In this document: piece after piece, positions 9,809 through 59,215 of the stretch | Layout of the letters: the number at the start of each line of letters is the position of its first letter | Numbering within the stretch: the stretch's first letter is position 1 | Virus record (IMG/VR): IMGVR_UViG_3300017917_004503 | Location: 1-64,000 of that record | Length of the DNA: 64,000 bases | Source: a virus | Direction: 5' to 3' (one strand) | Notes under the pieces: generated by a model | What the model saw: only the letters and a program-made list of their open reading frames with translations | Told to the model about the DNA's origin: nothing | The model's database searches: none | Made by a program: the position numbers and the translations under genes

Positions 9809-11512
9809 ATGATTCAAACTAGACTTCACACATATCTTACATGTAAGCTTCACAACATTTCAGAAGCAGAAGAATCTTCTAAGAAAGATAAGAATAAGGG
9901 GGAACCTACAGTTAAATATAAGGAAAATCTTTCTATAAGAGAGATACCTGGAGGGGAATCTGCTTTTAAATCTTATATGGGCATGTTTACTCAAGCAATG
10001 AATTGTTTAGATTCGATTCACGCTTTAGCCAAAGCAGCAGATCCGAAATCGAGCTCTTTGGAGAATTTCGATTCAGAAAGAAGAGATATTGGAGTCAAGG
10101 CTGGGAAAACAGAAGAAGCCGTTAACAATGCATGGAAAAAACTTGCACAGGTAGCTTCAGATTTGTTGAATGTCATACCTGAATCGATAAAGAAAAATGA
10201 TGTGATTAAAAAGTATAGGGACGAGCAAGCTAAACTAGATGCAGAATACCAGGATCAAAGTGGAAAGAAAATGAAACGTGATTACTATCTTTCCAAATCA
10301 GAGGAGATCAAAGAGAAGTATTCAGATATGATCGATCCAACTCAAGTCATGTCTTTGACTAAAATGAGTGAGGCTGCCAAACTTTACTTTTTAGCACTTA
10401 AAAACTTTTACAGGGGATCGCAAGTTGAAATTGAATTCATAAAGAATAAATCAAAGGAAAATGAAGAGGTCATCCAAGAATTTTTCGAGAGAGCGGGATC
10501 AGCAATGGAATCTTTAATTCTCAGTGAAAAATTTGCATCAAAAAATATACAAACTTACGAATCGGTAGTATTCGAAGGTATAGCACAAGGTTTAAAAAAA
10601 GTTGTAGGCAAATTAAAAGACGAACCTGTAGGAGATACCGATACCGTAACTTTAAAATATGCGGCTGATAATTTATTAGGTTCACTAATTTCTCTTGCTA
10701 ATGAAATTGATAACGTAATAGCTTATAAATCAGTTGTACAGGGTAGAGAAACGGAAGCTGGAAAAAGAGCAGCTGAGGAGGCAAAGAACTCAGCAGAGGA
10801 AATGATAAAATTCGTAAGGGATTCAGTCGAATACATAAACGGGAATCCTGATAAAGGTATACAAAGCGTTGAAGACGTCTTATCTGACTCTAAGGCTAAC
10901 GTTACACACTCCGAGATAAAGGAAAAGCTGAACGAAATAGCAAACGGTGTAACCAGAATAACTAGAAATGACGGTTTACTTCAAAAATGGAAAACACAGG
11001 TACTTGGGGAAAAAAGGGAAAAAACAGCATCAGGTTCATATCTAGAAAAAGGTAAAGAACTAATGTTTCAGGCAAATGAGATTATGAGAGAAATCTCAAA
11101 AAGAGCAAAGCTTGAGCAGGATGTGAAAAAGCTCGAGCCAGATCAGCTTATTAAAAGAGCAATTAACGCATACAAGGGGAAAGACTCTGATTCGAAAGAA
11201 TCCAAAAAACCTTCAAGAATTAAGAAAAGAAGCGACTATAAATCTTTTAGTTCTAAACCGAAGCAAGAGGACAAAGAAGCAATAAAGGATTTCCAGGAGA
11301 GATTGGTAAAGATTGGTGCTCTACCATCAGGATATAAAGAAGGAGAGTATGACGAAATTACCCAACAAGCAGCGAAAAAGGCAATGTCACACATAGGATT
11401 AGTTACGGGAAAGGTCTACGATACTACAGATGACGCATTTAAAGATTTCACCGTCGATGTTCAGTTCTACGGAGATAATTTAGATAAGATTAAGGACATT
11501 ATCAAAAAATAG
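9809..11512 (+). CDS. Putative virion protein, companion of the preceding gene
   Basis: 567 residues, helical and charged, starting 2 nt after the previous stop. The design parallels its neighbour. A short N-terminal peptide ends in NISE followed by AEE (residues 16-22), which fits the I/LxE processing pattern of T4-like prohead proteases. A long Lys/Glu-rich helical body follows, then a basic linker (about 465-490) and a C-terminal PGBD-like region (about 495-545, EAIKDFQERL and GEYDEITQQAAKKAM). A cell-wall-interacting or DNA-co-ejected virion protein is plausible. There is no recognised catalytic motif and no close family recognised. Confidence 0.5.
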   Translation: MIQTRLHTYLTCKLHNISEAEESSKKDKNKGEPTVKYKENLSIREIPGGESAFKSYMGMFTQAMNCLDSIHALAKAADPKSSSLENFDSERRDIGVKAGKTEEAVNNAWKKLAQVASDLLNVIPESIKKNDVIKKYRDEQAKLDAEYQDQSGKKMKRDYYLSKSEEIKEKYSDMIDPTQVMSLTKMSEAAKLYFLALKNFYRGSQVEIEFIKNKSKENEEVIQEFFERAGSAMESLILSEKFASKNIQTYESVVFEGIAQGLKKVVGKLKDEPVGDTDTVTLKYAADNLLGSLISLANEIDNVIAYKSVVQGRETEAGKRAAEEAKNSAEEMIKFVRDSVEYINGNPDKGIQSVEDVLSDSKANVTHSEIKEKLNEIANGVTRITRNDGLLQKWKTQVLGEKREKTASGSYLEKGKELMFQANEIMREISKRAKLEQDVKKLEPDQLIKRAINAYKGKDSDSKESKKPSRIKKRSDYKSFSSKPKQEDKEAIKDFQERLVKIGALPSGYKEGEYDEITQQAAKKAMSHIGLVTGKVYDTTDDAFKDFTVDVQFYGDNLDKIKDIIKK

Positions 11513-15144: not shown

Positions 15145-15612
15145 ATGGAGTCAGAAAATTTAGATCAAGAACAAAACAAAAAAAAATTAGGTGATAAGAT
15201 ATTTGGAGCACATAACAACCCCACTAGGGATACAGATTTCGATGAAACCTTTGAGATAGACCAGGGCCACAAATTTCTAGAAACCCATTATGACGAGGAA
15301 GACTATCTATATCAGAAAAAGTTAGAAGAAGCTGTCTATGAAGCTTTTCAAACTTCTAGATGGTTTCCTTTGAGTTATAAGAAGAAAATACCTAAGGATT
15401 TAATACCACATCTTTTTCAGGAAGTATTAGATAAGCTGGATGGCACTGAATTTACATTTTCTGAAAAATTTGTCTGTATTTGTGACTATGTACAAATACC
15501 CTATGCTAAAGCTTATGAGATCACTCCAATTAAATATAGAGAAATTATAATTAACGAGCTCGAGGTTAAGTATAAAATCCTATCTAAAAAGAAAATTAGA
15601 AGACTTTTCTAA
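15145..15612 (+). CDS. Hypothetical protein in the replication operon
   Basis: 155 residues, with an acidic N-terminal half (about 1-60, DETFEID, HYDEEDYLY) and a basic C-terminus (KYKILSKKKIRRLF). A central helical part contains TFSEKFVCICDYVQIPYAKAYEI. It lies between the helicase and gp47, so a helicase loader or recombination accessory role is possible, but I recognise no family. T4 gp59-like features were looked for and not found. Confidence 0.6.
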   Translation: MESENLDQEQNKKKLGDKIFGAHNNPTRDTDFDETFEIDQGHKFLETHYDEEDYLYQKKLEEAVYEAFQTSRWFPLSYKKKIPKDLIPHLFQEVLDKLDGTEFTFSEKFVCICDYVQIPYAKAYEITPIKYREIIINELEVKYKILSKKKIRRLF

Positions 15613-23865: not shown

Positions 23866-26800
23866 ATGCCATTAACACCAGGATTACAATTACCCTTTGG
23901 AGTACAACCAGTCAACCCTGTACCGGTTGACACATACTCTGGCCCTTATTCGGGAGTAACTGAATCAGCTGCTCTGAGCTCTGCAAATTCTTCTATACCT
24001 GGAGCTTTAAGATTTCAGTCTTTAGAAGTTAGATTAATATACGGTCCAACCGGATCTGCAGTACCCTATAAATATTGGTATTATGGTGGAACCGGGGATA
24101 GTGATTTAGTTCTTTTTTCAGCTGGTGGATCTGGTGTAACAGGACCAACTGGAGCATCTGGTAGCTCTGGATCATCTGGTAGCTCTGGATCATCTGGTAG
24201 CTCTGGATCATCTGGTAGCTCTGGATCATCTGGAACATCAGGAAGCTCCGGAACATCAGGAAGCTCTGGAACATCAGGAAGCTCTGGAACATCAGGAAGC
24301 TCTGGAACATCAGGATCTAGTGGCTCGTCCGGAACATCTGGTTCGTCAGGTTCTAGTGGTTCAGCAGGAACATCTGGTTCGTCAGGTTCTAGTGGTTCAG
24401 CAGGAACATCTGGATTGTCCGGAGCAACTGGAACCTCTGGATCTAGTGGATCTACCGGAACATCAGGATCATCAGGAACTTCTGGATCTAGTGGATCATC
24501 AGGAACCTCTGGATCATCAGGAACCTCTGGATCTAATGGATCATCAGGATCATCAGGATCATCAGGAACCTCTGGATCATCAGGATCATCAGGAACCTCT
24601 GGATCATCAGGATCATCAGGAACCTCTGGATCTTCAGGATCATCAGGAACCTCTGGATCTTCAGGAACCTCTGGATCTAATGGATCTTCAGGATCATCAG
24701 GATCATCAGGTACTTCTGGATCTTCAGGATCATCAGGTACTTCTGGATCATCAGGATCCTCTGGAACTAGCGGTGTTACTGGTCCAACCGGAGCTAATGG
24801 TATATCTGCTGGACAAGTTTATTATTTCAATGAAAGCCAAAATTCTGATGTATCTGGATATAAGGTTTTATCTATAACCCCGAGTGGGGCAGCTGAACAA
24901 ACAGTAACTACGAATTTAACAGGTCTTCAGCAGAATGTTTTGATTTCTGATTATATTACACCTCAGCTTGGATTTAACGTTATACCTGCAGGAAATCAAA
25001 GATTTCATATTCATCTTTTAAAACCAGCTTCTAACGATAATATTTCTTTGTATGTAGAGATCCAGTTGGCGAATTCGTCTGGAACCCCAATAGGTCCAAC
25101 GATAACATCTAGCGTTGCATCTGTTGGTTGGGTTAGTTCAATAGTTCCAGATACTGTTGAGACTGACATCACTTTATCTACAACTACCATAGATCCAACT
25201 AATAGAATGATAGTTAGACTCTATCTTAATAATAACGACGCAACATCTCACAGCGTTGTATATTATACGGAAGGATCATCATACTATTCTTTCGTTCAAA
25301 CGTCGGTTGGAGCTATAGCAGGAACTAGCGGAACTTCTGGCTCGTCCGGATCATCAGGAAGTTCTGGCTCGTCCGGATCATCAGGAAGTTCTGGCTCATC
25401 AGGAAGTTCTGGATCTAGTGGTCAAGATGGTATTTCTGGAGGTAGACCTTACTTTTTCAATCAGTCTGTTACGCAGACCCCGTTATCATATAAACAACTT
25501 GGACAAAATACTACTGGAGGTATTCAGCAAACAGTAGTCACTAATTTAACATCAAACCAACAAAATGTTTTAGTTGAAAGTTTCATAACTGATGTCGATG
25601 ACCCGTATCTTCTTTTAATCCCACAGGGATTATGGCATTCTTATGTTTATTGGACAAAACCAGCACAAAATGATAATATAACTTATTATTTTACTGTAAC
25701 TAAAAGAACATCAGGAGGGACAGAAACTCTATTGTTTACATCCGATAATAAACAAATTGGATGGGATACTAATAACACTACTCCGGTTGAGGTTGTTGCG
25801 AATGGTGTTGTTCCAACTAACACGTTAAACCTTACCGATAGAATTATAGTAAGTCTATATCTGAATAATAATGAAAATTCCAGTAAAACAGTTACCTTTT
25901 ATACTGAAAATGCAACTTATTCATACATTATAACAACTTTAACAACTCCTTCTGGTACTTCGGGGTCGTCCGGTACTTCAGGGTCTAGTGGCTCTTCAGG
26001 AAGCTCTGGTACTTCTGGATCTAGTGGCTCTTCTGGCACTAGAGGTTCATCTGGTTCATCAGGCACATCTGGTTCATCAGGCACATCTGGTTCATCAGGC
26101 ACATCTGGTTCATCAGGTACTTCTGGACTTGCTGGTATATCAGGGATCAATGGATCTGATGGATCCTCAGGATCCTCAGGTTCTAGTGGAGTGACCGGTG
26201 CATCAGGGTCTTCTGGAAGCAGCGGATCTAGCGGAACGTCTGGATCTTCTGGAAGCAGCGGAACGTCTGGATCTTCTGGAAGCAGCGGAACGTCTGGATC
26301 TAGTGGAACATCCGGGTCTAACGGGTCTTCTGGAAGCAGCGGATCTAGTGGAACTTCAGGATCTAGTGGAACATCTGGATCTTCTGGAAGCAGTGGAACC
26401 TCAGGCTCTTCTGGTTCTAGTGGAACCTCAGGATCTTCTGGAATTAGTGGTTCACAGGGACCAACCGGTTCTACTGGATCTGTTAGCGGACTTGTTCAAT
26501 ATGCAGGTTTAACTTTTACCAGTGGACCTGGATCAGATCTACAAACAATATATAATACCTCTTTGGATCCATCAATAACAGTAGGTACTACCGTAGGCGG
26601 TATAGCAGCTGGTACTACCGCAGGATTTTTATTTGGAAAAAATTTAGTCCAACTTTTTGATGACATATTATTTCCAACTTTATTGCCAACTTACACAATA
26701 CCAACTATAACTTTAACTTCTTCTGTTACTGGAATTTATGAAATCGGAGCTACACTATCTCCAAACCTAACAGCTTCTGGAACTAAAAATGATGCTGGAG

Positions 26801-27513
26801 CTTTTAGTTATCTTGGTATTTCTAGATTACCTAATGGAACTAGTGCGGTCCAAATTGGATCTACTGGATCACCAACGATAGCCTCTGCTACAGCAATACC
26901 GTCACAATTTGGATATGCTAGTCCTAATAACCCGAATTATTCTTATAGCTTCATAAAGGGTGATTCACTCACTGGTCCAGCTCCACTTTCAGGAAATAAT
27001 AGTACATTAGTTTATTCTGCAACTGGTAGCTATAGTGCAGGTTTAGCTAAGCAGAATAATAAAGGTGCAACAGATACACGCACTCCTTTAGTCAGAAGTA
27101 CCAGCGCTCCTCAAGATTCTTCAACGAATTTTGCTGCTTCAAATGTAACTTTGACCGGATATTATCCATATTATTACGGTAAAAGTTCAACACAGCAAAC
27201 AGCTTCTAACATCGTGTCTATCATTCAAAGCGGAACTGGATTTACTAAAGTCGTTGCATCTGGATCTGGATCTTTATCTATGGCTTTCAACGCTTCTAGT
27301 GAATGGCCTTGGTTTGCAATTTTCAGCGGATATTCAACTAAAACAGCTTGGTATGAAACACCTTTAAATAACGGAAGTATTGGATCTCCGACAGATTTGT
27401 TTGCTTCGCCAACGACACTTTCGATTATTTCGCCTGATGGTTATTGGGTTGTTACTTATAAAGTTTACCCTTCAAATAAAATAACCACATTGGGTACAGC
27501 CTCAATTTCTTAA
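23866..27513 (+). CDS. Very large tail fibre with three GSS/GTS tracts and duplicated beta domains
   Basis: 1215 residues. An N-terminal anchoring module (about 15-85, DTYSGPYSG and PYKYWYYGG) is shared with the 27614 fibre. Three GSS/GTS tracts follow (about 96-302, 486-518 and 697-861), separated by two homologous beta domains of about 165 residues (GQVYYFNESQ to VVYYTEGSSYYSF, and GRPYFFNQSV to VTFYTENATYSY). The C-terminal domain (about 870-1215) again carries the LFDDILFPTLLP...PTITLTSS pattern. No S74 chaperone domain is present. It is probably a trimeric host-recognition fibre; the duplicated beta domains are candidate receptor-binding or spacer modules. Confidence 0.8.
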   Translation: MPLTPGLQLPFGVQPVNPVPVDTYSGPYSGVTESAALSSANSSIPGALRFQSLEVRLIYGPTGSAVPYKYWYYGGTGDSDLVLFSAGGSGVTGPTGASGSSGSSGSSGSSGSSGSSGSSGSSGTSGSSGTSGSSGTSGSSGTSGSSGTSGSSGSSGTSGSSGSSGSAGTSGSSGSSGSAGTSGLSGATGTSGSSGSTGTSGSSGTSGSSGSSGTSGSSGTSGSNGSSGSSGSSGTSGSSGSSGTSGSSGSSGTSGSSGSSGTSGSSGTSGSNGSSGSSGSSGTSGSSGSSGTSGSSGSSGTSGVTGPTGANGISAGQVYYFNESQNSDVSGYKVLSITPSGAAEQTVTTNLTGLQQNVLISDYITPQLGFNVIPAGNQRFHIHLLKPASNDNISLYVEIQLANSSGTPIGPTITSSVASVGWVSSIVPDTVETDITLSTTTIDPTNRMIVRLYLNNNDATSHSVVYYTEGSSYYSFVQTSVGAIAGTSGTSGSSGSSGSSGSSGSSGSSGSSGSSGSSGQDGISGGRPYFFNQSVTQTPLSYKQLGQNTTGGIQQTVVTNLTSNQQNVLVESFITDVDDPYLLLIPQGLWHSYVYWTKPAQNDNITYYFTVTKRTSGGTETLLFTSDNKQIGWDTNNTTPVEVVANGVVPTNTLNLTDRIIVSLYLNNNENSSKTVTFYTENATYSYIITTLTTPSGTSGSSGTSGSSGSSGSSGTSGSSGSSGTRGSSGSSGTSGSSGTSGSSGTSGSSGTSGLAGISGINGSDGSSGSSGSSGVTGASGSSGSSGSSGTSGSSGSSGTSGSSGSSGTSGSSGTSGSNGSSGSSGSSGTSGSSGTSGSSGSSGTSGSSGSSGTSGSSGISGSQGPTGSTGSVSGLVQYAGLTFTSGPGSDLQTIYNTSLDPSITVGTTVGGIAAGTTAGFLFGKNLVQLFDDILFPTLLPTYTIPTITLTSSVTGIYEIGATLSPNLTASGTKNDAGAFSYLGISRLPNGTSAVQIGSTGSPTIASATAIPSQFGYASPNNPNYSYSFIKGDSLTGPAPLSGNNSTLVYSATGSYSAGLAKQNNKGATDTRTPLVRSTSAPQDSSTNFAASNVTLTGYYPYYYGKSSTQQTASNIVSIIQSGTGFTKVVASGSGSLSMAFNASSEWPWFAIFSGYSTKTAWYETPLNNGSIGSPTDLFASPTTLSIISPDGYWVVTYKVYPSNKITTLGTASIS
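24151..24771 (+). repeat. GSS/GTS triplet tract (fibre 2, first)
   Basis: About 69 tandem 9-bp units. They fall into homogeneous blocks, for example GGTAGCTCT/GGATCATCT, then GGAACATCA/GGAAGCTCT, then GGATCATCA/GGAACCTCT. Confidence 0.92.
25321..25420 (+). repeat. GSS/GTS triplet tract (fibre 2, second)
   Basis: Eleven 9-bp units between the two homologous beta domains. Confidence 0.9.
25954..26449 (+). repeat. GSS/GTS triplet tract (fibre 2, third)
   Basis: About 55 units, interrupted once by a GLAGISGINGSDG segment. Contains a 27-bp block repeat near 26220-26300. Confidence 0.9.
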
Positions 27514-27556
27514 TTTTCTTGTTAATCTGATTATTCTATGGAAGAGTTGGAAACCT

Positions 27557-27566
27557 GAATATATAG
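27557..27566 (+). promoter_or_regulatory. Late-type promoter box GAATATATAG (P4)
   Basis: Located 47 nt before the ATG of the 27614 fibre, with CCT upstream as in P7. The 5' leader would be longer than at other boxes. Confidence 0.6.
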
Positions 27567-27613
27567 TATTGAATAAATCAACAAAACAAATAAGACCGAA
27601 CTCCCTGTAATAT

Positions 27614-29851
27614 ATGGCAATAAATTTAAGTGATAATATTTTAGCAAAAACCACTGCACCCGCAGATGCTAAATATGGACCTTACTCTGGGGGTAGTACT
27701 GCTGCTGCAATAAATGCAGCGACCGGTTATCTTATCTCATCATATAGATACGAAGGTCTGACTATAGGTTTACAAGTAGGTGCTAACCCGATTGTAGAAT
27801 ATTGGTTTTACGGAGGAATTTTAGATGCAAATTTAACTCAAAAGGTTGTTTCTGGCTCGAATGGTACCTCTGGTTCTTCAGGATCTAGCGGAACATCGGG
27901 TTCTTCAGGATCTAGTGGTACCTCTGGTTCTTCAGGTTCTAGTGGAACATCAGGTTCTTCAGGATCTAGCGGAACATCAGGATCCTCTGGTTTGGGTGGA
28001 TCCTCAGGAACTTCTGGACTTGCCGGTATATCTGGTGTTAATGGATCCGATGGAACATCAGGTTCTTCAGGATCTAGCGGGACTTCAGGTTCTTCAGGGT
28101 CTAGTGGGACTTCAGGTTCTTCAGGATCTAGTGGGACTTCAGGTTCTTCAGGATCTAGTGGGACTTCAGGTTCTTCAGGATCTAGTGGGACTTCAGGTTC
28201 TTCGGGATCTAGCGGAACATCAGGATCTAATGGTTCTTCAGGATCTAGCGGAACATCTGGTTCTAATGGTTCTTCAGGATCTAGCGGAACATCAGGTTCT
28301 TCCGGGTCTAGTGGATCTAGTGGATCGGCTGGAACAGCTGGAGCCCCTGGAGTAGATGGCGCATCTGGAACATCTGGAACAGCGGGTTCAAGCGGTTCCA
28401 CCGGTACATCTGGATCTAGTGGTTCTTCTGGTACATCTGGATCTAGTGGTTCTTCTGGTACATCTGGATCTAGTGGTTCTTCTGGAACTAGAGGATCTTC
28501 AGGCTCTTCTGGAACTAGTGGTTCTAGTGGATCCAGTGGTTCTAGTGGTTCTAGTGGAACATCGCCAACGGTATCTGGATCTAATAATCAGATATTAACA
28601 TCTGATGGTTCAGGTGGAATTGTTTCTGAAACTAATTTAGAGTTTGATGGAAATAAACTATCGGTATTATATCAATCTGGTGATGAAGGTGGTGAAATAT
28701 TTTTAAATAAAGCAGTTACAAATACAACATTAAATGGTGGTATAACAATAGATTCATATCAAAATAAATTAAGATTTTTCGAACAAGGAGGCACTGCAAG
28801 AGGAGCTTATATAGATCTAACAGCATGTGCTGCTGGAGTTGGAACCGATTTATTAAGCGGTGGTGGTGGAGGCGGATCTAATGGATCTTCCGGATCAAGC
28901 GGATCGTCTGGCACTTCCGGATCAAGCGGATCGTCTGGCACTTCCGGATCAAGTGGATCTTCTGGAACCAGAGGTTCATCAGGTTCATCAGGTTCATCAG
29001 GTTCATCAGGAACCAGTGGATTGACTTGTACCTCTTATACAGTAACAGAAACCGCTAACTCCGGTGCAAGTTTCGATTATGAACCCTGTGGATCTCCCGG
29101 AACGGTTATTGGTTATATTCTAACTGCTTTGCAATCTGTTACTTTGTGTGCGGTTAACGGAACAGTAGTTCAGACTAGCGGAACTATATCAATTACAGAT
29201 AACGGTTTATGTTCTGGATCCTCGGGATCATCTGGCTCTTCTGGATCCTCGGGATCATCTGGCTCTTCGGGGACCTCAGGATCATCTGGATCTTCTGGTA
29301 CCAGAGGATCATCAGGATCATCAGGTACATCTGGTCAGGCAGGCGCAAGCGGAACTGTTAATACTATATCTAAATTTACATCATCTACAACAGTAGGTAA
29401 TTCTAACGCCACTGACGATGGCACTACATTCGAGATATCTACATCTAATTTGAAAGTTACATCTAGCGTAGCTGTAGGATCTATTACAGCTTCGGGTGTT
29501 TCTGGTCGAATTGATGCTTCGAATGACGTCGTTGCTTTTTCTACATCTGATATTAGATTTAAAGAAAATATTAAACCGATAGAAAATGCTCTAGATAAAA
29601 TTCAAAAAATTGGAGGATACACTTTCGATTGGAAAGACGATCAAAACCTTAAGGTACTCCATGGATTTTCTGGACCTGATGTTGGTGTAATAGCTCAAGA
29701 GATTGAATCGATATTACCAGAAACTGTAAAAACTAAACCTAATGGATTTAAAGGTGTAAAATACGAAAAAATCGTACCTTTATTAATTCAAGCAATAAAA
29801 GAACTTTCTCAAGAAGTTGAAGATTTGAAAAAAATCAAAAATATACAATAA
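27614..29851 (+). CDS. Tail fibre with GSS/GTS tracts and C-terminal S74 autochaperone
   Basis: 745 residues. An anchoring module like that of the previous fibre (KYGPYSGGST, EYWFYGG, about 20-75) is followed by a long GSS/GTS tract (about 81-316), a beta domain, two shorter tracts, a Cys-containing beta domain (about 475-530), and a C-terminal peptidase S74 intramolecular chaperone (about 640-745, SDIRFKENI and VGVIAQEIESILPE). S74 domains trimerise fibres and then cut themselves off at the Ser of the S-D motif, here S645, with K650 as partner. A coiled coil (IKELSQEVEDLKKI) closes the protein. Confidence 0.88.
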   Translation: MAINLSDNILAKTTAPADAKYGPYSGGSTAAAINAATGYLISSYRYEGLTIGLQVGANPIVEYWFYGGILDANLTQKVVSGSNGTSGSSGSSGTSGSSGSSGTSGSSGSSGTSGSSGSSGTSGSSGLGGSSGTSGLAGISGVNGSDGTSGSSGSSGTSGSSGSSGTSGSSGSSGTSGSSGSSGTSGSSGSSGTSGSSGSSGTSGSNGSSGSSGTSGSNGSSGSSGTSGSSGSSGSSGSAGTAGAPGVDGASGTSGTAGSSGSTGTSGSSGSSGTSGSSGSSGTSGSSGSSGTRGSSGSSGTSGSSGSSGSSGSSGTSPTVSGSNNQILTSDGSGGIVSETNLEFDGNKLSVLYQSGDEGGEIFLNKAVTNTTLNGGITIDSYQNKLRFFEQGGTARGAYIDLTACAAGVGTDLLSGGGGGGSNGSSGSSGSSGTSGSSGSSGTSGSSGSSGTRGSSGSSGSSGSSGTSGLTCTSYTVTETANSGASFDYEPCGSPGTVIGYILTALQSVTLCAVNGTVVQTSGTISITDNGLCSGSSGSSGSSGSSGSSGSSGTSGSSGSSGTRGSSGSSGTSGQAGASGTVNTISKFTSSTTVGNSNATDDGTTFEISTSNLKVTSSVAVGSITASGVSGRIDASNDVVAFSTSDIRFKENIKPIENALDKIQKIGGYTFDWKDDQNLKVLHGFSGPDVGVIAQEIESILPETVKTKPNGFKGVKYEKIVPLLIQAIKELSQEVEDLKKIKNIQ
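27853..28563 (+). repeat. GSS/GTS triplet tract (fibre 3, first)
   Basis: About 79 units with a few interruptions (GLGGSSG, GLAGISGVNGSDG, GAPGVDG). A 27-bp unit coding GSSGSSGTS is repeated nearly exactly several times around 28075-28220. Confidence 0.92.
28874..29017 (+). repeat. GSS/GTS triplet tract (fibre 3, second)
   Basis: Sixteen units following a poly-glycine stretch; an exact 27-bp repeat (GGATCAAGC GGATCGTCT GGCACTTCC) is visible. Confidence 0.9.
29216..29350 (+). repeat. GSS/GTS triplet tract (fibre 3, third)
   Basis: Fifteen units directly before the segment that leads to the S74 domain; local exact repeats of GGATCCTCGGGATCATCT. Confidence 0.9.
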
Positions 29852-42122: not shown

Positions 42123-42677
42123 ATGGCAGGATTACCACATTATCAGAACTCACTCTCTGCAACCAATAGGTTTGAACCTGTTTACCTCAACCAGTTTGAG
42201 GTAACAGTTATACCACCAGCGGCTGTTTTGGGAGGAGAGATACTTTTACAGCATGTTACCAAAGTAAGTGGCTTATCTTTGGATAAGAATCCTGGATTAG
42301 TTACTCAGAAGTATAAATTCGCTAAAAGAAACTATGCAGGATCTAAACCGGATAATACTTATATGGATCTAAGCTTAAGTTTTACAGTTAACTTGAACGA
42401 TGACAATTCAATGTATGTTTTTAAGACTTTAAGACAATGGAGTGATTTGATCTATAACCCTTTAACCGGTGCAATGGGATTAAAGAACGATTATGTAGGG
42501 ACTTTAGTTGTTTCTATTTATAATAAACAGGGAGATGTTTTCAGAAGGATAACTTGCAGAGATTGTTACCCAACAAAGCCTGTTAATCCTATGAATCTAA
42601 ATTACACCTCGACTGACATTTATAAAATAGATGACATGACTTGGGCGGTTGATTACTGGGAAGATCTATTCTTATAA
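42123..42677 (+). CDS. 19: Tail tube protein 1 (T4 gp19-like)
   Basis: 184 residues, close to T4 gp19 (163). Typical features are an N-terminal LNQFEVTVIPP strand, YMDLSLSFTVNLND, WSDLIYNPLTGAMGLK and a C-terminal DDMTWAVDYWEDLFL. It polymerises into the inner tail tube. It lies 41 bp after the sheath gene, and an AT-rich GATAAATATAA precedes the start. A close paralogue follows. Confidence 0.9.
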   Translation: MAGLPHYQNSLSATNRFEPVYLNQFEVTVIPPAAVLGGEILLQHVTKVSGLSLDKNPGLVTQKYKFAKRNYAGSKPDNTYMDLSLSFTVNLNDDNSMYVFKTLRQWSDLIYNPLTGAMGLKNDYVGTLVVSIYNKQGDVFRRITCRDCYPTKPVNPMNLNYTSTDIYKIDDMTWAVDYWEDLFL

Positions 42678-42694: not shown

Positions 42695-43270
42695 ATGGCA
42701 GGTTTACCACATTTTACAAATTCGAGAGCTGCGATAAACAACTTTGAACCTGTTTATCTAAACCAATTTGAGGTCATTATAAACACACCACCTGGAATTC
42801 CAGATTCCAGCACAACATTTAAAGGTGAGACTATTTTAACCCAACAGGTGAAATCTATTACAGGTTTAGCCGTTGATATTCTTCCGGCTTCTAATGTTGA
42901 GCAAAACTATAAGTTTGCCACAAGGAGATATGCTGGAGGAGAACCTTCAACATCCGATATGACACTCACTATGGAATTTGAAGTTAACTTGAACGATGCA
43001 AATTCGATGACGACATACAAGATATTAAGACAATGGAGTGACTTAATATACAATCCATTAACTGGTGCAATGGGACTTAAGACAGATTATGTTGGATCTA
43101 TGGTTATATCTATTTTTAATAAAAGGGGAGACGTTTTCAGAAGAATCAGAATTCCTTCTTGTTTTTTAAGTGAGGCTATAAATCCAATGGAACTAGATTA
43201 CGAAAACCCTGCTATATACACAGTCAGTACGTCTTGGATATGTGATTACTGGGAGGATCTTTTCCTATAA
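42695..43270 (+). CDS. Tail tube protein 2 (gp19 paralogue)
   Basis: 191 residues, clearly homologous along its whole length to the preceding tube protein (FEPVYLNQFEV, RQWSDLIYNPLTGAMGLK, GDVFRRI and DYWEDLFL are shared). An extra segment lies in the N-terminal third (GIPDSSTTFKG). Two gp19 copies in tandem could give a mixed tube or a specialised first or last ring. In T4, gp54 is a remote gp19 homologue that initiates the tube, so an initiator role is an alternative. Confidence 0.88.
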   Translation: MAGLPHFTNSRAAINNFEPVYLNQFEVIINTPPGIPDSSTTFKGETILTQQVKSITGLAVDILPASNVEQNYKFATRRYAGGEPSTSDMTLTMEFEVNLNDANSMTTYKILRQWSDLIYNPLTGAMGLKTDYVGSMVISIFNKRGDVFRRIRIPSCFLSEAINPMELDYENPAIYTVSTSWICDYWEDLFL

Positions 43271-51675: not shown

Positions 51676-51699
51676 AATAAGAATAAAAAAAACAAGACC

Positions 51700-54255
51700 A
51701 TGGATTTTATAAACCAAGTGAAAAAATTAAAAGAGCTAACTAAATCACCTGAAGTTAGACAAATCTGCGAGAAATATCTTAGCGGATCAAATGAGGTCTC
51801 AAAGGAACAGGTAGAGGCCGTTATTAATGAACAAGCTACTCCTGATGTTAAGAATCATTGGGATTCGATTGCTCAAGAGCAATTACAGGCTTCTAAAAAA
51901 GCCGCTCAAGCTCTTATGGAATCTTGGGGAGGTTTCGGAAGAGGATCTTCGAATTCTGGTTCTTATAAACCTTCGGTTAAGCAAGAAGAAAACACTTCAG
52001 CTCTTTTAGAGAATCTTAATACTATATCGATTGAAGATAACAACGCTAAATCTTTTGTTGAAGCTCAGAACTTAAAAAATCTTGGGATCTTAGAATCTAT
52101 TAACAAGATTAAAGGACTTTCTATTTCTGAATATCCTAAAGTTAAAATAGTTTGTGAGCAATACTCTAACTTAATCGTTAACAAAAACATTCCTGAGTTT
52201 TCTTTAATCAATGGATTTATCTCTGAAATGGAGTCTTTTAAATGGGACGTATCTATATTACCAGTCATAGAAAATCTAAAAGAAAAATCTTCTAGATTTT
52301 CAAGAGAAATCGAAGTTGCTAAAGTTATCGAATCTATAAAAACTAGTGGATCAGCTTCTTTTTATTCTGACTTGTCAGAATCGCTAAATTCTTGGTTAAT
52401 CTCTGAAAATAAATCCTCTGGATTATTAGCAAAAGAAATTAGTAAATGGTCTTTCAATCCTGTCGTTAGAAATCTAATCAATTTCTTAAATGCTAATGAA
52501 GCAAGTAACACATCTAAGCTGGAGTTACCTGTGAATGCTCAAAACGAGTCAAGGGTTTCTAGAATTTTTTCACCTATTTTAATCGAAGGTGAGACTACAT
52601 ATTTCACCGCAGGAAAGAGTATCTTCCAAATTAAAGATAGCTCGATAAAAAGATTAAATGAAAAAGAGATCGCTTCAGTTCCAGGAGAGTATATTTCTTT
52701 GGTTAACGCTTGTTTAAAACCTTATGTTCAAATTTCAGAAAGCGGAGTTAAAATATCTCTAGGTAAGAAATCTGTTAGCATTATCGAAGAGAAAGAAGAT
52801 GTTTCAGTTTATCTTGGTAAATCTAGATTAAACTTTAGATCAGTTGCAGAACTTGCTAAAATACTTGGTCTTGAATCTAGCAGCCATTTCGGAGTAAATG
52901 AGTCACAAGTAGTTGGAGATATTCTTAACATCTATACTAACTTCAGAAATATAGTAGAGCTTGATTTCGCTAAAAACATTTCGTCTAATATCTACGAAGG
53001 TGTTTCGGTTAATCTTATTAAATGGGATAATAATATCTTCTTACAGAGAATAAACGATGCAATGAGAGAAAATTCTGTTTATAAAGTTAATGGATCTCAA
53101 GCCGTGAAAATGGTTAAAGATTTCTTAAGATATGACATATCAGAGGGCTTAACTGAATTCTTGGATGGAGAACAGAAGATCAAGTCTATTATGGTAAATG
53201 ATAGAACTAAGGTCCTTGAAAACATCTCTCGTGTTGAATCAGAAGTTAACAAACTAGAGACATTGATGGAAAGCAATCCTCTTTATGCTGCTTCAAAGGA
53301 AATAAAATCAGCTCATGGATTATTAACCAGTGAACTTTCAGTTCTTAGAGAAAAATGGAATCAGATTAATCTTGAGATCTCTAAGATAGAATCAGAACCT
53401 AATATAGTATCAGATCTTTTTGAAGATCAAAAATTCAATATTGGCGATCTAGTTAAAATTAAAGAATCAGGTGAAACCGGAAAGATTATTTCTGTTGATG
53501 GAAGTTCTGGCAGATATACAATCCTTTTAGACAATGGAAGAACTTCGGATTACATGGTTAATGATATAGTTGATCTTGAAGAAGCATTAGCTCAAGCAGC
53601 AGAAAGAAACGAAGAAAAAGCTGGTGAAGATAGATCAGAGGAAGAAGGATCAGAAGAAATGAAGGAGTCAAACAACCTCAATAAATCTAATCTTTCAATC
53701 GAAGAACAGAAAAAACTTTTAAAAACTTTTTCAACAGGTCATTCTTTTTCTAAAGCTCCAGAAGACGAGAACGAAGAAATAGAAATGGAACTTGATAGCT
53801 TACATGGATACAATGTAACTATGAATGAAAAGAATCAAACAACAGCTAAAGCACCAGGCGATAGTAAATTAGAATCAGGTAAAGATGCTAATAAAAAGAA
53901 TCTAGCAACTGCACCAGGATCTCATAAAAAAGAAAAGGCAAAGGCTGAAGGTGAAGATTTATTAAGCGATAATGCACCTGAAACTAAAAAGAAAACCGAA
54001 TTTGATGGTAAAGATGCTGAAGGATCTAAATATGAAATCGGATATAACATCAGAGAAGGTAAAGCCGAAGACGAGGGTAATATGGTAGAAGCTCCTGAAA
54101 AGGGGAAAAATGCTAAAGAAACAACTGCTAAGGGTAACTTAGAAAAGATGATGAATTTGGCCGAGGCTCCAGGTAAAGAAGGTAATATTGATTTCGAAGT
54201 AAACGATGAAATGGGATATAACATTCAAGAATCCGACGAAGTAAAAAAAAACTAA
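51700..54255 (+). CDS. Large virion-type protein with KOW/SH3-like and acidic repeat regions (zero-frame product)
   Basis: 851 residues in the zero frame. A mostly helical N-terminal two thirds (about 1-570) contains a coiled coil (about 505-565). A KOW/SH3-like barrel follows at about 580-630 (FNIGDLVKIKESGETGKIISVDG, YTILLDNG). The last 200 residues are acidic and repetitive, with recurring KAP/EAP words and GYNV/GYNI words (LHGYNVTMNE, IGYNIREG, MGYNIQES). The zero-frame stop at 54253 follows A AAA AAC, and the same kind of acidic sequence continues in the -1 frame to 54410. Own promoter P9 and own terminator. Likely an abundant virion or head-assembly protein; no family recognised. Confidence 0.7.
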   Translation: MDFINQVKKLKELTKSPEVRQICEKYLSGSNEVSKEQVEAVINEQATPDVKNHWDSIAQEQLQASKKAAQALMESWGGFGRGSSNSGSYKPSVKQEENTSALLENLNTISIEDNNAKSFVEAQNLKNLGILESINKIKGLSISEYPKVKIVCEQYSNLIVNKNIPEFSLINGFISEMESFKWDVSILPVIENLKEKSSRFSREIEVAKVIESIKTSGSASFYSDLSESLNSWLISENKSSGLLAKEISKWSFNPVVRNLINFLNANEASNTSKLELPVNAQNESRVSRIFSPILIEGETTYFTAGKSIFQIKDSSIKRLNEKEIASVPGEYISLVNACLKPYVQISESGVKISLGKKSVSIIEEKEDVSVYLGKSRLNFRSVAELAKILGLESSSHFGVNESQVVGDILNIYTNFRNIVELDFAKNISSNIYEGVSVNLIKWDNNIFLQRINDAMRENSVYKVNGSQAVKMVKDFLRYDISEGLTEFLDGEQKIKSIMVNDRTKVLENISRVESEVNKLETLMESNPLYAASKEIKSAHGLLTSELSVLREKWNQINLEISKIESEPNIVSDLFEDQKFNIGDLVKIKESGETGKIISVDGSSGRYTILLDNGRTSDYMVNDIVDLEEALAQAAERNEEKAGEDRSEEEGSEEMKESNNLNKSNLSIEEQKKLLKTFSTGHSFSKAPEDENEEIEMELDSLHGYNVTMNEKNQTTAKAPGDSKLESGKDANKKNLATAPGSHKKEKAKAEGEDLLSDNAPETKKKTEFDGKDAEGSKYEIGYNIREGKAEDEGNMVEAPEKGKNAKETTAKGNLEKMMNLAEAPGKEGNIDFEVNDEMGYNIQESDEVKKN

Positions 54256-54410
54256 GTCGTAATTTTTACTTCGCACCGAAAGATAAGAATCAAAATTCAC
54301 CGGGACAAAAATTTGTAGATCCTATAGAAGGTAGAATGAGTAAAGCTCCAACAGGAAAGGAATCTGAAGAAATAGAGACTGATTCTGATTCACAGGAAGA
54401 TTCTAAATAA
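54246..54410 (+). other. Putative -1 frameshift site and 52-codon extension
   Basis: A nine-A run (54243-54251) gives A AAA AAC in the zero frame, directly followed by UAA. After a -1 slip, reading continues as CTA AGT CGT for 52 codons to TAA at 54408. The extension contains RNFYFAPKDK, VDPIEGRMSKAPTGKESEEIE and an acidic Asp/Ser end, matching the composition and KAP words of the zero-frame C-terminus. The stop at 54410 lies 10 nt before the terminator. No strong downstream pseudoknot or hairpin is visible. A homopolymer sequencing error is the main alternative. Confidence 0.7.
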
Positions 54411-54420
54411 TTTTAACATG

Positions 54421-54453
54421 AAAAGAACGTAAAACCTACGTTCTTTTCTTTTG
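54421..54453 (+). terminator. Strong Rho-independent terminator
   Basis: AAAAGAACGTA pairs perfectly with TACGTTCTTTT (11 bp) around an AAACC loop and is followed by CTTTTG. Ends the 51700 unit. Confidence 0.9.
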
Positions 54454-54503: not shown

Positions 54504-54863
54504 ATGGCTAAGGATTACGTAAAAAATAGCGATCTAATGGTTGCTATAATAGAATCAAAAAAAGCAGGCAAGCTAACACCCGATGCCATTGCTATGTTTG
54601 GACTTATGATACAGGGAATATCAAAGAAAATGGCATATAAGGATCCAGAAGATAAAGAGGACTGTATGGCTTTTGCTATGGAGGATCTTTGCAAATATTG
54701 GGATAGATTTAATCCTGAAAAATCAAATAACCCTTTTGCTTATTTCACACAAATTGCAAAAAATGGATTTGCAAAGGGATGGAAAAAAATACATCCACCA
54801 AAAAGTCCAAAAACTATACCGTTTAGTCATATTACAGGAGAAGATAACACATATAACATCTAA
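54504..54863 (+). CDS. 55: Late-transcription sigma factor (T4 gp55-like)
   Basis: 119 residues, shorter than T4 gp55 (185). The match runs along the core: NSDLMVAIIESKK, then AIAMFGLMIQGISKKM, then a helix with MEDLCKYWDRFNPEKSNNPFAYFTQIAKNGFAKGWKKI, which parallels the gp55 order NNKELLQAIIDWK ... IMLIAEGLSKRF ... [23 protein letters not shown]. gp55 is a minimal sigma-2-like factor that directs host RNA polymerase to TATAAATA late promoters with the sliding clamp. Here the C-terminal part beyond the core is short. It is the prime candidate reader of the GATATATA boxes. Confidence 0.85.
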   Translation: MAKDYVKNSDLMVAIIESKKAGKLTPDAIAMFGLMIQGISKKMAYKDPEDKEDCMAFAMEDLCKYWDRFNPEKSNNPFAYFTQIAKNGFAKGWKKIHPPKSPKTIPFSHITGEDNTYNI

Positions 54864-54865
54864 AG

Positions 54866-55351
54866 ATGACCGATATTAAAAAGGTAAAACCTAATGGAGA
54901 GTATAAGTCTGGTTTATATGAACCACAAAATCCAGAAAAGTACATAGGAGATATTCACAATATCATATTTAGATCGTCTTGGGAATATAGATTTTGTGTA
55001 TACTGTGATACTAATGAATCAATATTAAAATGGAGTTCAGAACCTCTTAAAATACCGTATTACAATCCTCTGGATAAAAAGGAACATGAATATAATGTTG
55101 ACTTTTATGTCAGAGTTTTAAAAGAATCTGGTGAAGAACAAGAGTGGATCTTAGAGATTAAGCCCGAAAGACAAACAAAAAAACCGGTATTTGAAGGAAT
55201 AACTACTTTACAGAAACTGAAATCGTATAATCATAATATGCAGATCTGGATTACGAACCAATCTAAGTTTAAAGCTGCAAAACACTGGGCTGAGAAAAGA
55301 GGTTTTAGATTTGGTGTCGTTGATGAAAATTTCTTATTTAAGAGTAAATGA
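54866..55351 (+). CDS. 4: Head completion nuclease-like protein (T4 gp4)
   Basis: 161 residues, the T4 gp4 (gp50/65) size. Conserved pattern: PQNPEKYIGDIHNIIFRSSWEYRFCVYCD (about 20-48), WSSEPLKIPYYNP, then VDFYVRV and WILEIKPERQTKKP. The E...D-x(n)-E-x-K arrangement makes a PD-(D/E)XK-type core. gp4 acts at the filled head before tail joining. It starts 2 nt after the sigma gene stop and overlaps the next gene by 4 bp. Confidence 0.92.
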   Translation: MTDIKKVKPNGEYKSGLYEPQNPEKYIGDIHNIIFRSSWEYRFCVYCDTNESILKWSSEPLKIPYYNPLDKKEHEYNVDFYVRVLKESGEEQEWILEIKPERQTKKPVFEGITTLQKLKSYNHNMQIWITNQSKFKAAKHWAEKRGFRFGVVDENFLFKSK

Positions 55352-55962: not shown

Positions 55963-57561
55963 ATGGCCGGTTTTGTAAATAATAACGATCCCCAACAGTC
56001 ACCAGTAATTACCAGAATTAGAGATTCTGTGAGAAAGCTGAGCACTTTCGGGATGAAGTATGATGATATGGTCATACGAAACTCTCAGGCAGTTGGTGTT
56101 ACTGAAGCAGCATTCTTAAACAAGAATAAATCCAATGTTGAGGATGAAAGTATGCTATGGACTCTTGCGAAGCAAGATATTACATCAAAGCAGTATGTTT
56201 CATATTTCGATAAAGATTATAAGGGTAAAAGAGATTACCTAAGAAAATTCTCTCTTAATCCTGAAATAGAATGGGTTTTAGACACTGTGTGTGATGAGAC
56301 TATTTCTTACGATCCTGCCAATTTTTTTGCTTATCCTGATTTTTTAGACCTGTCAGACATCAACGAAAAACTAAAGGATTCTCTTTATGAGACGTATCGA
56401 AAACTATATGATGTTTGGGGATTCTCTGATGATATAACTGCATGGCAGTATTTTAGACAATTCCTCGTTGATGGATTTCTTTGTTTCGAAATTATCTATG
56501 ATAATGAGGGAAAGAATATAATAGGATTTAAAGAATTAGATCCTGTTACTATAGTACCTAGCGTAGAAAAGCAAGTAGACGGAAGTTTTTTAAATACCTG
56601 GACCCAATTTCCACAGGATCCAAGAAGAAGACGTGTTCTATATGATCCCCAGATTATTTATATCTCGTATGCTAAGGGCAATTCAATTTCCAGAATAAGT
56701 TATATCGAAAGATTAATTCGTCCTTATAATATCCTTAGAATCATCGAATACACCAGAATTATCTGGTCTGTTATGAATGCTTCTTTTAAATTGAAGATGA
56801 CTGTTCCTATTGGTACTAAATCCCAACAAAAAGGAATGCAAACTCTAGGAGAATTAATGAGCATCTATAAGGAAGACGTTCAATTGAATGATGAAAGTGG
56901 TGAATTGTTTATAGACGGAAGACCTAAAATTCAGTTTTACAAGAATTACCTAATGCCTTCTGGAGTAAACGGAACGCCAACAATTGAACCTTTAACAACA
57001 GAGGGTCCAAACTTAAATGACCCTGCTCCTTTATCATATTTCTTTGATAAGTTTGTACAAGAATCTAAGGTACCTCCATCAAGATTCACTGGTCCAGATG
57101 GAACTAATGCTTCGACCTACACAAATGCTGCTGAGGGATTGGATAAAGAGGAGATTAGATTTGCTAAATTTGTAGAAAGACTTAGATCTATATTCCAGGA
57201 GATATTAACTAAACCTCTGTGGATACAAATGGCTAAAAAATATCCTGAGTTAGAGAAGGACTTTATGTTTAAGAGCCAGCTAGGTCTCGATTATTTTTCA
57301 GATAACCCGTTTAAAATAAACCAAGAAATTGAAGTAATTAATAAAAGAAAAGAATCAGTAACAGCTATGTCAGGTTTACTTGATGATGAGGATAAACCCT
57401 TTTTCTCAGTTCCTTTCCTAATTGAAAATTTCTTAGGAATTTCTAGACAGGATATTGTAGCAAATAAAGAAGCCAAAGAAAGGAAAGAGAAGGAGAAAAA
57501 GAAAGATAGTAAAAAAGATGAAGGCGAAAAAGAGGGTGGAGAGGAAAGCATAACTTTATAA
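55963..57561 (+). CDS. 20: Portal protein, copy 1 (T4 gp20-like)
   Basis: 532 residues, the size of T4 gp20 (524). Conserved landmarks: FGMKYDDMVIRNSQAVG, LRKFSLNPEIEWVLDTVCDE, RQFLVDGFLCFEIIYDNEGK, YISYAKGNSISRISYIERLIRPYNILRIIEYTRIIWSVMNA, then GELFIDGRPKIQFYKNY and PPSRFTGP. The portal forms the dodecameric ring at the head vertex that DNA passes through. The C-terminus is a charged Lys/Glu tail (about 500-532). A full second copy follows 1 nt downstream. Confidence 0.92.
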   Translation: MAGFVNNNDPQQSPVITRIRDSVRKLSTFGMKYDDMVIRNSQAVGVTEAAFLNKNKSNVEDESMLWTLAKQDITSKQYVSYFDKDYKGKRDYLRKFSLNPEIEWVLDTVCDETISYDPANFFAYPDFLDLSDINEKLKDSLYETYRKLYDVWGFSDDITAWQYFRQFLVDGFLCFEIIYDNEGKNIIGFKELDPVTIVPSVEKQVDGSFLNTWTQFPQDPRRRRVLYDPQIIYISYAKGNSISRISYIERLIRPYNILRIIEYTRIIWSVMNASFKLKMTVPIGTKSQQKGMQTLGELMSIYKEDVQLNDESGELFIDGRPKIQFYKNYLMPSGVNGTPTIEPLTTEGPNLNDPAPLSYFFDKFVQESKVPPSRFTGPDGTNASTYTNAAEGLDKEEIRFAKFVERLRSIFQEILTKPLWIQMAKKYPELEKDFMFKSQLGLDYFSDNPFKINQEIEVINKRKESVTAMSGLLDDEDKPFFSVPFLIENFLGISRQDIVANKEAKERKEKEKKKDSKKDEGEKEGGEESITL

Positions 57562-57562
57562 G

Positions 57563-59215
57563 ATGGCAGGATTTTTAGATCTATTTAAACCAAACGAATC
57601 TGCTTTAGGTAACATTCTTAGAAACCTAGGCAAAGTCTCCAAATTTGGGATGGAGTACGATGATATGGTTGTTCGTAATTCTCAAGCAATAGGTAAAAGC
57701 GAAGGATCCTTTTTTAATCAGCAGGGGACTGGGTTTACTCAGGATGATGCTTTTTATTGGACTCTTTCTTATCAGGATACGAAGGTAAGAAAATACATAG
57801 CTTATTTTGATAAGGATTATATTGAAAAAAGAAACTTTCTGAGAAAATTTTCACTCAATGGTGAGATAGAATTTATTTTAGATACTATCACTGACGAATG
57901 TATAACCTATGACGATAGAAATTTTTTCGCAAATCCTTCTTTCATAAATCTTGATTTGAAAGAGAAAATTCTAAATAAAATAACTTCACATTACAATCGC
58001 CTTTATAACATTTTTGGATTTCAGAATTCTATTTTGGCTTGGCAATTATTTAGACAGTTTCTTATTGATGGATTTTTAGCTTTTGAAATAATATACGACA
58101 ACAAAGGAAAAGAAATTATTGGATTTAAAGAATTGGATGCAACCTCTTTGCAGCCAGCAGTAGAAAGAGTTGGTGAAAATGAGTACAAACAATTTTGGAT
58201 TCAATACCCAAAGAATCCTCAGATGACTAGAAAACTCACTAATGAACAGGTTATCTATATTTCTTATGCCAAGGGTAATAGTATTTCCAGAGTTAGCTAT
58301 ATAGAAAGATTAGTAAGATCATATAATATTTTGAGAATCATGGAGAATTCCAGGGTAATCTGGAATGTTATGAATGCTTCTTATAGATTAAAGTTTGTAA
58401 TACCAACTGGAAGCCAGTCTCCTCAAAAAGCTATGCAAACATTAGGACAGTTAATGTCAAATTATAAAGAGGAGATAAGCATAAATGATGCTTCTGGTGA
58501 ATTGACTGTAAACGGAAGACCTAAAGTCCAATTTTACAAAAATTATTTATTTCCTGAAATGAATGGACAATCTCCACAAATTTCATCACTAAATCCTTCC
58601 GGTCCTGATTTTAACGTTATGGAAAATGTTGTTTACTTCTATAATAAGTTAAAAATGGACTCTAAACTTCCTTATGCTAGATTTGCAGCTAGAAGTGCAG
58701 GTCCTTCTAATTATAAGGTAAGTATTGATGCTCTTGAAAGAGATGAGATACGTTTTGAAAAGTTTCTCCGTAGATTGAGATCTATATTTCAAGAAATTTT
58801 GGTTAAACCTCTTTATATACAAATGTGTTTAGATTTTCCTGAATTATCTAGAGATAGAAGCTTTAAGGTTAATCTTGGATTAGATTTTCACAGAGAAAGT
58901 GAATTTGAAGAAATGGTTCAGCTTTCGAATTACACTAAAAGAAGTGAATTTATCAAAGGACTCTATGAATTTAAAATTAAGGCTGGTGATGAGGAAAAGC
59001 CATATTTTGATAATGACTTTCTAATTCAGAGATTTCTAGGTCTGACTCCAGATCAGATTAAAATGAATGAAGAATATAAGAAGAAAGAGGAAAAACAAGC
59101 ACCACAAGCTAAACCTGCCAGTGGAGAAGGCGAATCACCAGAAGGAGAAACGTCAACCCCTCCAGAGGGAGAAGCTCCAGAGGGAGAAGCTCCGGAACCA
59201 GAAGTAACACTTTAA
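57563..59215 (+). CDS. Portal protein, copy 2 (gp20 paralogue)
   Basis: 550 residues. It is collinear with copy 1 over about 500 residues (YDDMVVRNSQAIG, LRKFSLNGEIEFILDTITDE, RQFLIDGFLAFEIIYDNKGKEIIGFKELDA, YISYAKGNSISRVSYIERLV, RLRSIFQEILVKPLYIQM). It differs most at both ends and in the region after the MPSGV/FPEMN segment. The C-terminal tail is Pro/Glu/Gly-rich (PEGEAPEGEAPEPEV) instead of Lys/Glu-rich. Both copies lack obvious lesions, so both are probably functional. A hetero-oligomeric ring, or one copy serving another dodecameric position, is possible. Confidence 0.9.
   Translation: MAGFLDLFKPNESALGNILRNLGKVSKFGMEYDDMVVRNSQAIGKSEGSFFNQQGTGFTQDDAFYWTLSYQDTKVRKYIAYFDKDYIEKRNFLRKFSLNGEIEFILDTITDECITYDDRNFFANPSFINLDLKEKILNKITSHYNRLYNIFGFQNSILAWQLFRQFLIDGFLAFEIIYDNKGKEIIGFKELDATSLQPAVERVGENEYKQFWIQYPKNPQMTRKLTNEQVIYISYAKGNSISRVSYIERLVRSYNILRIMENSRVIWNVMNASYRLKFVIPTGSQSPQKAMQTLGQLMSNYKEEISINDASGELTVNGRPKVQFYKNYLFPEMNGQSPQISSLNPSGPDFNVMENVVYFYNKLKMDSKLPYARFAARSAGPSNYKVSIDALERDEIRFEKFLRRLRSIFQEILVKPLYIQMCLDFPELSRDRSFKVNLGLDFHRESEFEEMVQLSNYTKRSEFIKGLYEFKIKAGDEEKPYFDNDFLIQRFLGLTPDQIKMNEEYKKKEEKQAPQAKPASGEGESPEGETSTPPEGEAPEGEAPEPEVTL

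Follow-up and report, generated by a model that had tools for sequence, protein, structure and literature searches.

Does a reading frame that meets its stop codon through nine consecutive adenines end there, or is it also continued in the frame one base back? If it is continued, is the slip made by RNA polymerase or by the ribosome, and what would the longer product do? The question arises at positions 51700-54255 of the window (the whole 64,000-nucleotide stretch of DNA analysed, part of a virus record of 151,373 bases), where the gene referred to here as gene X, an 851-residue reading frame in its short form, terminates in GTA AAA AAA AAC TAA. A sequence-only reading of this DNA had the frame ending at a slippery heptamer followed by a stop, with the -1 frame then open for 52 codons and closing shortly before a terminator. 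Base by base, the heptamer (54246-54252), the TAA (54253-54255) and the 52 open codons (54252-54407, stop at 54408-54410) are as claimed, and the extension that they encode is acidic. The terminator also stands, although the distance from the extension stop to the start of the hairpin stem at 54420 is 9 nt and not the 10 nt given; the hairpin was found by folding (z -7.9) and is absent from the list returned by a terminator pattern scan. The features of the locus, all on the + strand, are as follows (a slash marks a predicted cut).

51700..54255, +, gene X, short form, 851 aa, frame 0
51913..51921, +, predicted protease site LME/S in an LMESW motif (LMESW in 37/38 relatives, LTESW in 1/38)
53437..53559, +, small SH3/Tudor/KOW-like barrel, residues about 580-620, suggested by weak similarity (MSSS Pfam E 0.0011, below cut-off; AF2 model; Foldseek)
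53749..54252, +, disordered-looking tail with a variable number of [K/E]AP ... GYN[LI]xE repeats, from sequence
54223..54231, +, predicted prohead-protease site IQE/S, 7 residues upstream of the short-form stop (L/I-X-E consensus)
54243..54251, +, nine-A slippery tract (nine A in 44/46 distinct ends, ten A in 2/46)
54246..54252, +, heptamer A AAA AAC inside the A tract, read from sequence
54252..54410, +, -1 frame extension LSRNFYFAPK...SKAPTGK..., 52 codons and stop, a conserved reading frame
54253..54255, +, frame-0 stop TAA abutting the tract (TAA, TGA or TAG in relatives)
54420..54448, +, intrinsic-terminator-like hairpin with a U-rich tract after it (MFE -17 kcal/mol, z -7.9)
54504..54863, +, next gene, gp55-like late sigma factor, a conserved neighbour (match and synteny)
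54866..55351, +, gp4-like head closure protein, a conserved neighbour (match and synteny)

Runs of at least nine A or T number just 8 in the whole record. A second nine-A run lies at 15178-15186, in the first codons of an ORF at 15145-15612, and an A-rich leader, with eight A in the window, is found at 51685-51692, right before the start of gene X.

T4-type phage contigs that make up a deep family share this arrangement. Searching IMG/VR at the protein level brought up 41 loci, and both the A run and the extension at -1 are present in all 34 whose sequence extends to the gene end. A search with a DNA pattern that describes only the extension peptide, without the run, recovered 48 stretches, and a profile search supplied the best 80 of 165 loci, with identity down to 41% among the matches listed. 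Distinct gene ends, 46 in all, were recognised by the extension peptide, and the run was not used for finding them; 44 carry nine A and two carry ten, and eight or eleven never occur. In 43 of these ends the extension is read at -1, and a stop, be it TAA, TGA or TAG, immediately follows the run in 41. A distant clade has an extension that is nearly unrecognisable (LKKILSRVWSFAPTGK...MSVAPDGK), but keeps the same run and offset and a stop (TAA or TGA) directly behind the run. The motif is present in 154 of 168 locus records, which overlap widely and include some contigs up to three times, and each time 9 or 10 A precede it. The 14 records without the motif as searched are L116, L079 and 12 in which neither a gp55 start nor the gene end was located; L116 carries the variant RHFYFAPK behind nine A in an unchanged layout, and L079 has nine A but its sequence breaks off within the extension. 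Upstream, L034 and L116 appear damaged or misassembled, the former with an internal frame break and the latter with an in-frame TAG. The 37 related loci compared (468 kb) contain 60 runs of at least nine A, 37 of them at this site and at every locus; two of the other 23 are intergenic elsewhere and only four fall in ORFs of at least 80 codons. The remaining 17 sit 16-17 nt upstream of the gene X start codon, where 17 of the 37 loci have nine or ten A. Aligning relatives, the check that had been proposed for the frame change, thus finds both the A run and the offset frames conserved.

Selection on the site was followed in 38 sequences taken from the 46 ends and selected for nine A, C or G next and an adjacent stop; they are related, so that counts over them are not independent, and they form 17 groups below 85% identity. 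Left aside were L100 (near-identical to L101), L146 (gene start missing) and, for their different arrangement, L120, L128, L130, L132, L085 and L135; the pN/pS sets also omit L134 and L139. The run is spelled by a codon NNA (GTA 13, TTA 13, TCA 11, CTA 1) followed by AAA, AAA, and the first of these always ends in A though its residue varies (Val 13, Leu 14, Ser 11). The third codon after it is AAC in 32 and AAG in 6, the base after the run is never T, and AAT, which makes up 72% of Asn codons in the larger ORFs of the window, is yet never found after KK here. Synonymous differences affect 47% of same-residue codon pairs gene-wide (33% for Lys, 41% for Asn), 13 of 224 pairs at the first run codon and none at the KK[N/K] codons. 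The selected feature is the run of nine A, longer than a heptamer requires. The extension itself has pN/pS values at -1 of 0.34 in 25 close sequences and 0.37 in 11 distant ones (range 0.27-0.37), near those of the gene X core (0.35 and 0.26), and the 60 codons upstream of the run score higher (0.66 and 0.50). Read in the two remaining frames, the first 40 codons of the extension score 1.2-3.8 and are interrupted by stops in all sequences. Purifying selection acts on the extension in its -1 reading. With run, offset and extension protein sequence all conserved, the programmed -1 frame change first suspected from one sequence is supported, and we regard it as nearly certain that two C-terminal forms are made through such a slip.

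The exceptions are instructive as to its history. L128 has nine A in a different register and no adjacent stop, and L130 (and L046/L067) has ten A. The extension is continuous in frame 0, with the run still of nine A, in L060/L061/L066/L085/L090; it is a separate ORF starting MSSNKILDFFSYINEENADVKKNLSRNFYFAPK in L062/L081/L088, and in the split-gene lineage L135/L136/L138 the separate ORF has a leader, MSSNKILDFFSYINE, followed by the same extension. In a tree of the core, L128, L130, L132 (=L060) and L135 (=L081) form one clade with support of 1.0, and the fused and split forms are sisters (0.99). Because the standard arrangement is found on both sides of the deepest split, outgroup L044 aside, and the exceptions fall in one clade, the slip is best taken to be ancestral, with replacement in a single subclade. 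Since L132 and L085 fuse the extension in frame 0, the long form does not always need slippage.

Which enzyme would slip is a closer matter. The heptamer noticed at the outset implied the ribosome, and it is there; the tract, however, is kept longer than a heptamer, and slippage by RNA polymerase fits this better. We favour the transcriptional origin, as the likelier of the two, because the strictly kept tract exceeds the heptamer, and the run length of nine is retained in L128 despite its change of register. At a length of nine A or T, bacterial RNA polymerase is reported to slip very efficiently in vivo (PMC5009743), and single-base insertions predominate at A/T runs (PMC5574713). A poly(A5) reporter series gave more insertion when C followed the run than when G or T did (PMC6260861), and the bias towards C after the run seen here agrees with those reporters, which had five A and for which the passage available names no polymerase. 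The same study counts against transcription in that E. coli polymerase slipped little at eight A or fewer (PMC6260861). A search of 6 records for an rpoB-type RNA polymerase gave no match while detecting its positive control; a phage-type RNA polymerase search gave no match either, but its control was silent too, so it carries little weight.

Programmed -1 ribosomal frameshifting, in which the tRNAs on AAA AAA or AAA AAC slip back by one base, is a serious contender, if the less probable one. The slip would take place directly before a stop codon and would need no stimulatory structure. Each of the 38 selected sequences has A AAA AAC or A AAA AAG, and L128 and L130 have A AAA AAA; the run holds tandem heptamers, A AAA AAA and A AAA AAC, one codon apart, and because these lie within the run much of the observed pattern would be expected from the ribosome too. 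The adjacent stop (41/46) and the -1 offset (43/46) are as expected of the ribosome, and there are phage precedents for -1 frameshifting in virion genes, namely the T3/T7 coat, A2 and lambda G-T (PMC5009743). Against this, nine A are kept although seven bases suffice, even where the register has shifted in L128. No downstream stimulatory stem-loop is conserved in the 38 sequences (ViennaRNA, pseudoknot-free; mean z -0.58, -0.36 and -0.39). AAG makes the better site in E. coli (PMC5009743), yet it is rarer than AAC here, and wide ribosome sliding yields little product at A9 or A10 (PMC4363877).

The gene X protein has no Pfam match above cut-off and no PHROGs match. Two AlphaFold2 runs on residues 1-647 gave models of low confidence (pLDDT 69-71, pTM 0.39); with the first, Foldseek found 8 matches at E <= 0.001 in BFVD, all uncharacterised phage proteins except one annotated as a DNA ligase, from phage pT24, and with the second a PDB structure search found nothing at E <= 0.001, only SH3/Tudor-like fragments. 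A PDB sequence search with the gene X profile gave no informative match, and nothing comparable to the KAP repeat motif occurs in other proteins of the record. No homology to gp22, gp67, gp68, IP or Alt was recognised by PHROGs or by Pfam above cut-off, and no capsid-targeting-like leader was seen at the N-terminus. Gene X is thus treated as working like the gp21-processed core proteins of T4, not as a member of them. In Tenacibaculum phage PTm1, the head-gene region was inspected and a counterpart of gene X was not pinned down.

The neighbourhood comprises gp55-like, gp4-like, weakly gp2-like and two portal-family genes, in an order kept in relatives. The same record encodes a prohead protease of the Peptidase_S77 family joined to a repetitive part that resembles a scaffold, as well as a Gp23-type capsid protein; an S77 prohead protease is found in 11 of 11 relatives too, and the site SLNE/SAGAYN of the major capsid protein is invariant in 9/9. 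The suggestion that gene X is a virion-type protein is plausible from the predicted head-protease sites and the head-gene neighbours. Several other genes deserve mention. The portal gene is duplicated, adjacent genes at 55963-57561 and 57563-59215 both matching phrog_213, and both are present in relative L032. At L095 6013-7977 (record 70013-71977) the S77 protease carries a tail in which a unit like YSKYLAENLDKNI is repeated about a dozen times, so that protease and scaffold apparently form one protein. Starts of the F.EW..LNEA or HKLNEAEG type occur at L095 9809-12153 and at 8532-9806 and 9809-11512 of the window; they resemble T4 capsid-targeting sequences, and the proteins that carry them may be internal head proteins. 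Adjacent tail-tube-like genes at 42123-42677 and 42695-43270 have near-identical starts, and at 23866-29851 large ORFs enclose long low-complexity out-of-frame ORFs, which suggests collagen-like or similar repeats.

The predicted protease sites give the slip a possible purpose. T4 gp21 cleaves after L/I-X-E and reduces core proteins to peptides (PMC9026906, PMC9958956). The last predicted [LI]xE of gene X, whose tail repeats read GYN[LI]xE, precedes the short-form stop by 7-10 residues in 36 of the 38 sequences (shuffled sequences: mean 2.5, maximum 8), a placement found in 16 of the 17 groups below 85% identity; within the extension [LI]xE occurs in none of the 38 (shuffled: mean 17, minimum 6). 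We propose that RNA polymerase, most likely, now and then inserts one A at the nine-A tract, and that mRNA with the added A would be translated beyond the frame-0 stop in the -1 frame. The products would be the 851-residue short form and a long form bearing the conserved acidic extension of 52 residues. Gene X protein would probably be a component of a T4-type prohead core, and a gp21-like protease would probably cleave it after the [LI]xE 7 residues before the slip. Cleavage of the long form would then yield an internal-head peptide of 57-84 residues (59 here), and that of the short form a stub of only 7-10 residues; because only the long form would free the peptide, slippage would set its dose. 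We give this explanation as a whole, comprising slippage signal, prohead core protein and protease-freed peptide, a probability of roughly 0.5. The release of an internal-head peptide, with cleavage and head location predicted from sequence motifs and gene order, is put forward tentatively. Less probable again is the full proposal that RNA polymerase slippage sets the packaged amount of a peptide freed by the head protease and given its own gene, with a capsid-targeting leader, in one lineage. In that split-gene lineage the peptide follows an FFSYINE leader, which suggests that it is a unit of its own; the leader resembles the F.EW..LNE starts of proteins adjoining the capsid gene and appears capsid-targeting-like.

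Alternatively, the extension could be a cleavable C-terminal targeting tag, such that gene X would enter the prohead only in its slipped form and afterwards lose the tag to the protease. With the predicted cut upstream of the slip, both forms would mature to one C-terminus, and gp21 does process T4 Alt at its C-terminus (PMC5694885). The L135 lineage, however, has the extension detached from gene X and provided with its own leader, and L132 fuses it to every copy; the former fits a free peptide better, and so does the latter, when set against a tag that limits dose. We consider the tag unlikely.

Phase variation classically involves a homopolymer placed where frames meet, as in gene X. Mutation of the run at the DNA level, switching populations between short and long forms, is nevertheless very improbable: nine A are found in 44 of the 46 ends and ten in the other two, never eight or eleven, and no lineage mixes run lengths at otherwise identical ends. 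Weakest is the possibility, raised at the outset, of a one-base sequencing or assembly error in an otherwise continuous gene, which we reject as scarcely credible: homopolymers are error-prone and one clade (L060/L061/L066/L085/L090) does have a continuous frame, but that clade also has nine A and is nested in one subclade, and an identical offset (43/46) and a stop adjacent to the run (41/46) whose identity varies (TAA, TGA, TAG) recur in diverged contigs.

If slippage coupled to peptide release is correct, T4-type phages widely carry a recoding site among their head genes, and frame slippage is linked to the proteolytic maturation of the head. Since standard gene calling goes no further than the stop, a conserved family of phage peptides would be missed. 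The locus would also offer a natural system in which single synonymous changes separate transcriptional from ribosomal slippage.

The literature, as far as it was available, already records frame slips for capsid and tail genes of phages and transcriptional slippage for bacteria, and slippage has been suggested in a phage methyltransferase gene (PMC2853527). For a slippage-extended prohead-core protein no precedent was found in a literature search that left most subscription papers outside. Homologues in Prevotella Lak phages and LR756500 share the gene X core at 21-27% identity, and LR756500 also has the same gp55-gp4 neighbours; neither a nine-A run nor an NFYF extension was found at the gene X loci of the Lak phages and LR756500. 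The Lak phage homologue at L043 4281-9329 is 1682 aa long (TAG read as Gln) and has very long acidic stretches past the shared core. T4 gp22, gp67, gp68 and the internal proteins share with gene X the repeated [LI]xE, an S77 protease and the expectation of short peptides (PMC9026906, PMC9958956). They show no sequence homology to gene X that we could find. We know of no T4 peptide that is dosed via a frame slip. Thermus thermophilus dnaX, which has nine T, and Shigella spa13/mxiE resemble gene X in that polymerase slippage occurs in coding sequence, and in both it gives a defined mix of short and long C-termini (PMC5009743). They are cellular genes with measured products, whereas gene X is a gene of the phage head region known from comparative evidence. 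Gene 10 of T7/T3, Lactobacillus phage A2 and lambda G-T share with it the -1 C-terminal extension of a phage structural or assembly gene (PMC5009743). Unlike these, gene X has a nine-A run, an abutting stop and no conserved structure, and its extension would be detached at a predicted protease site.
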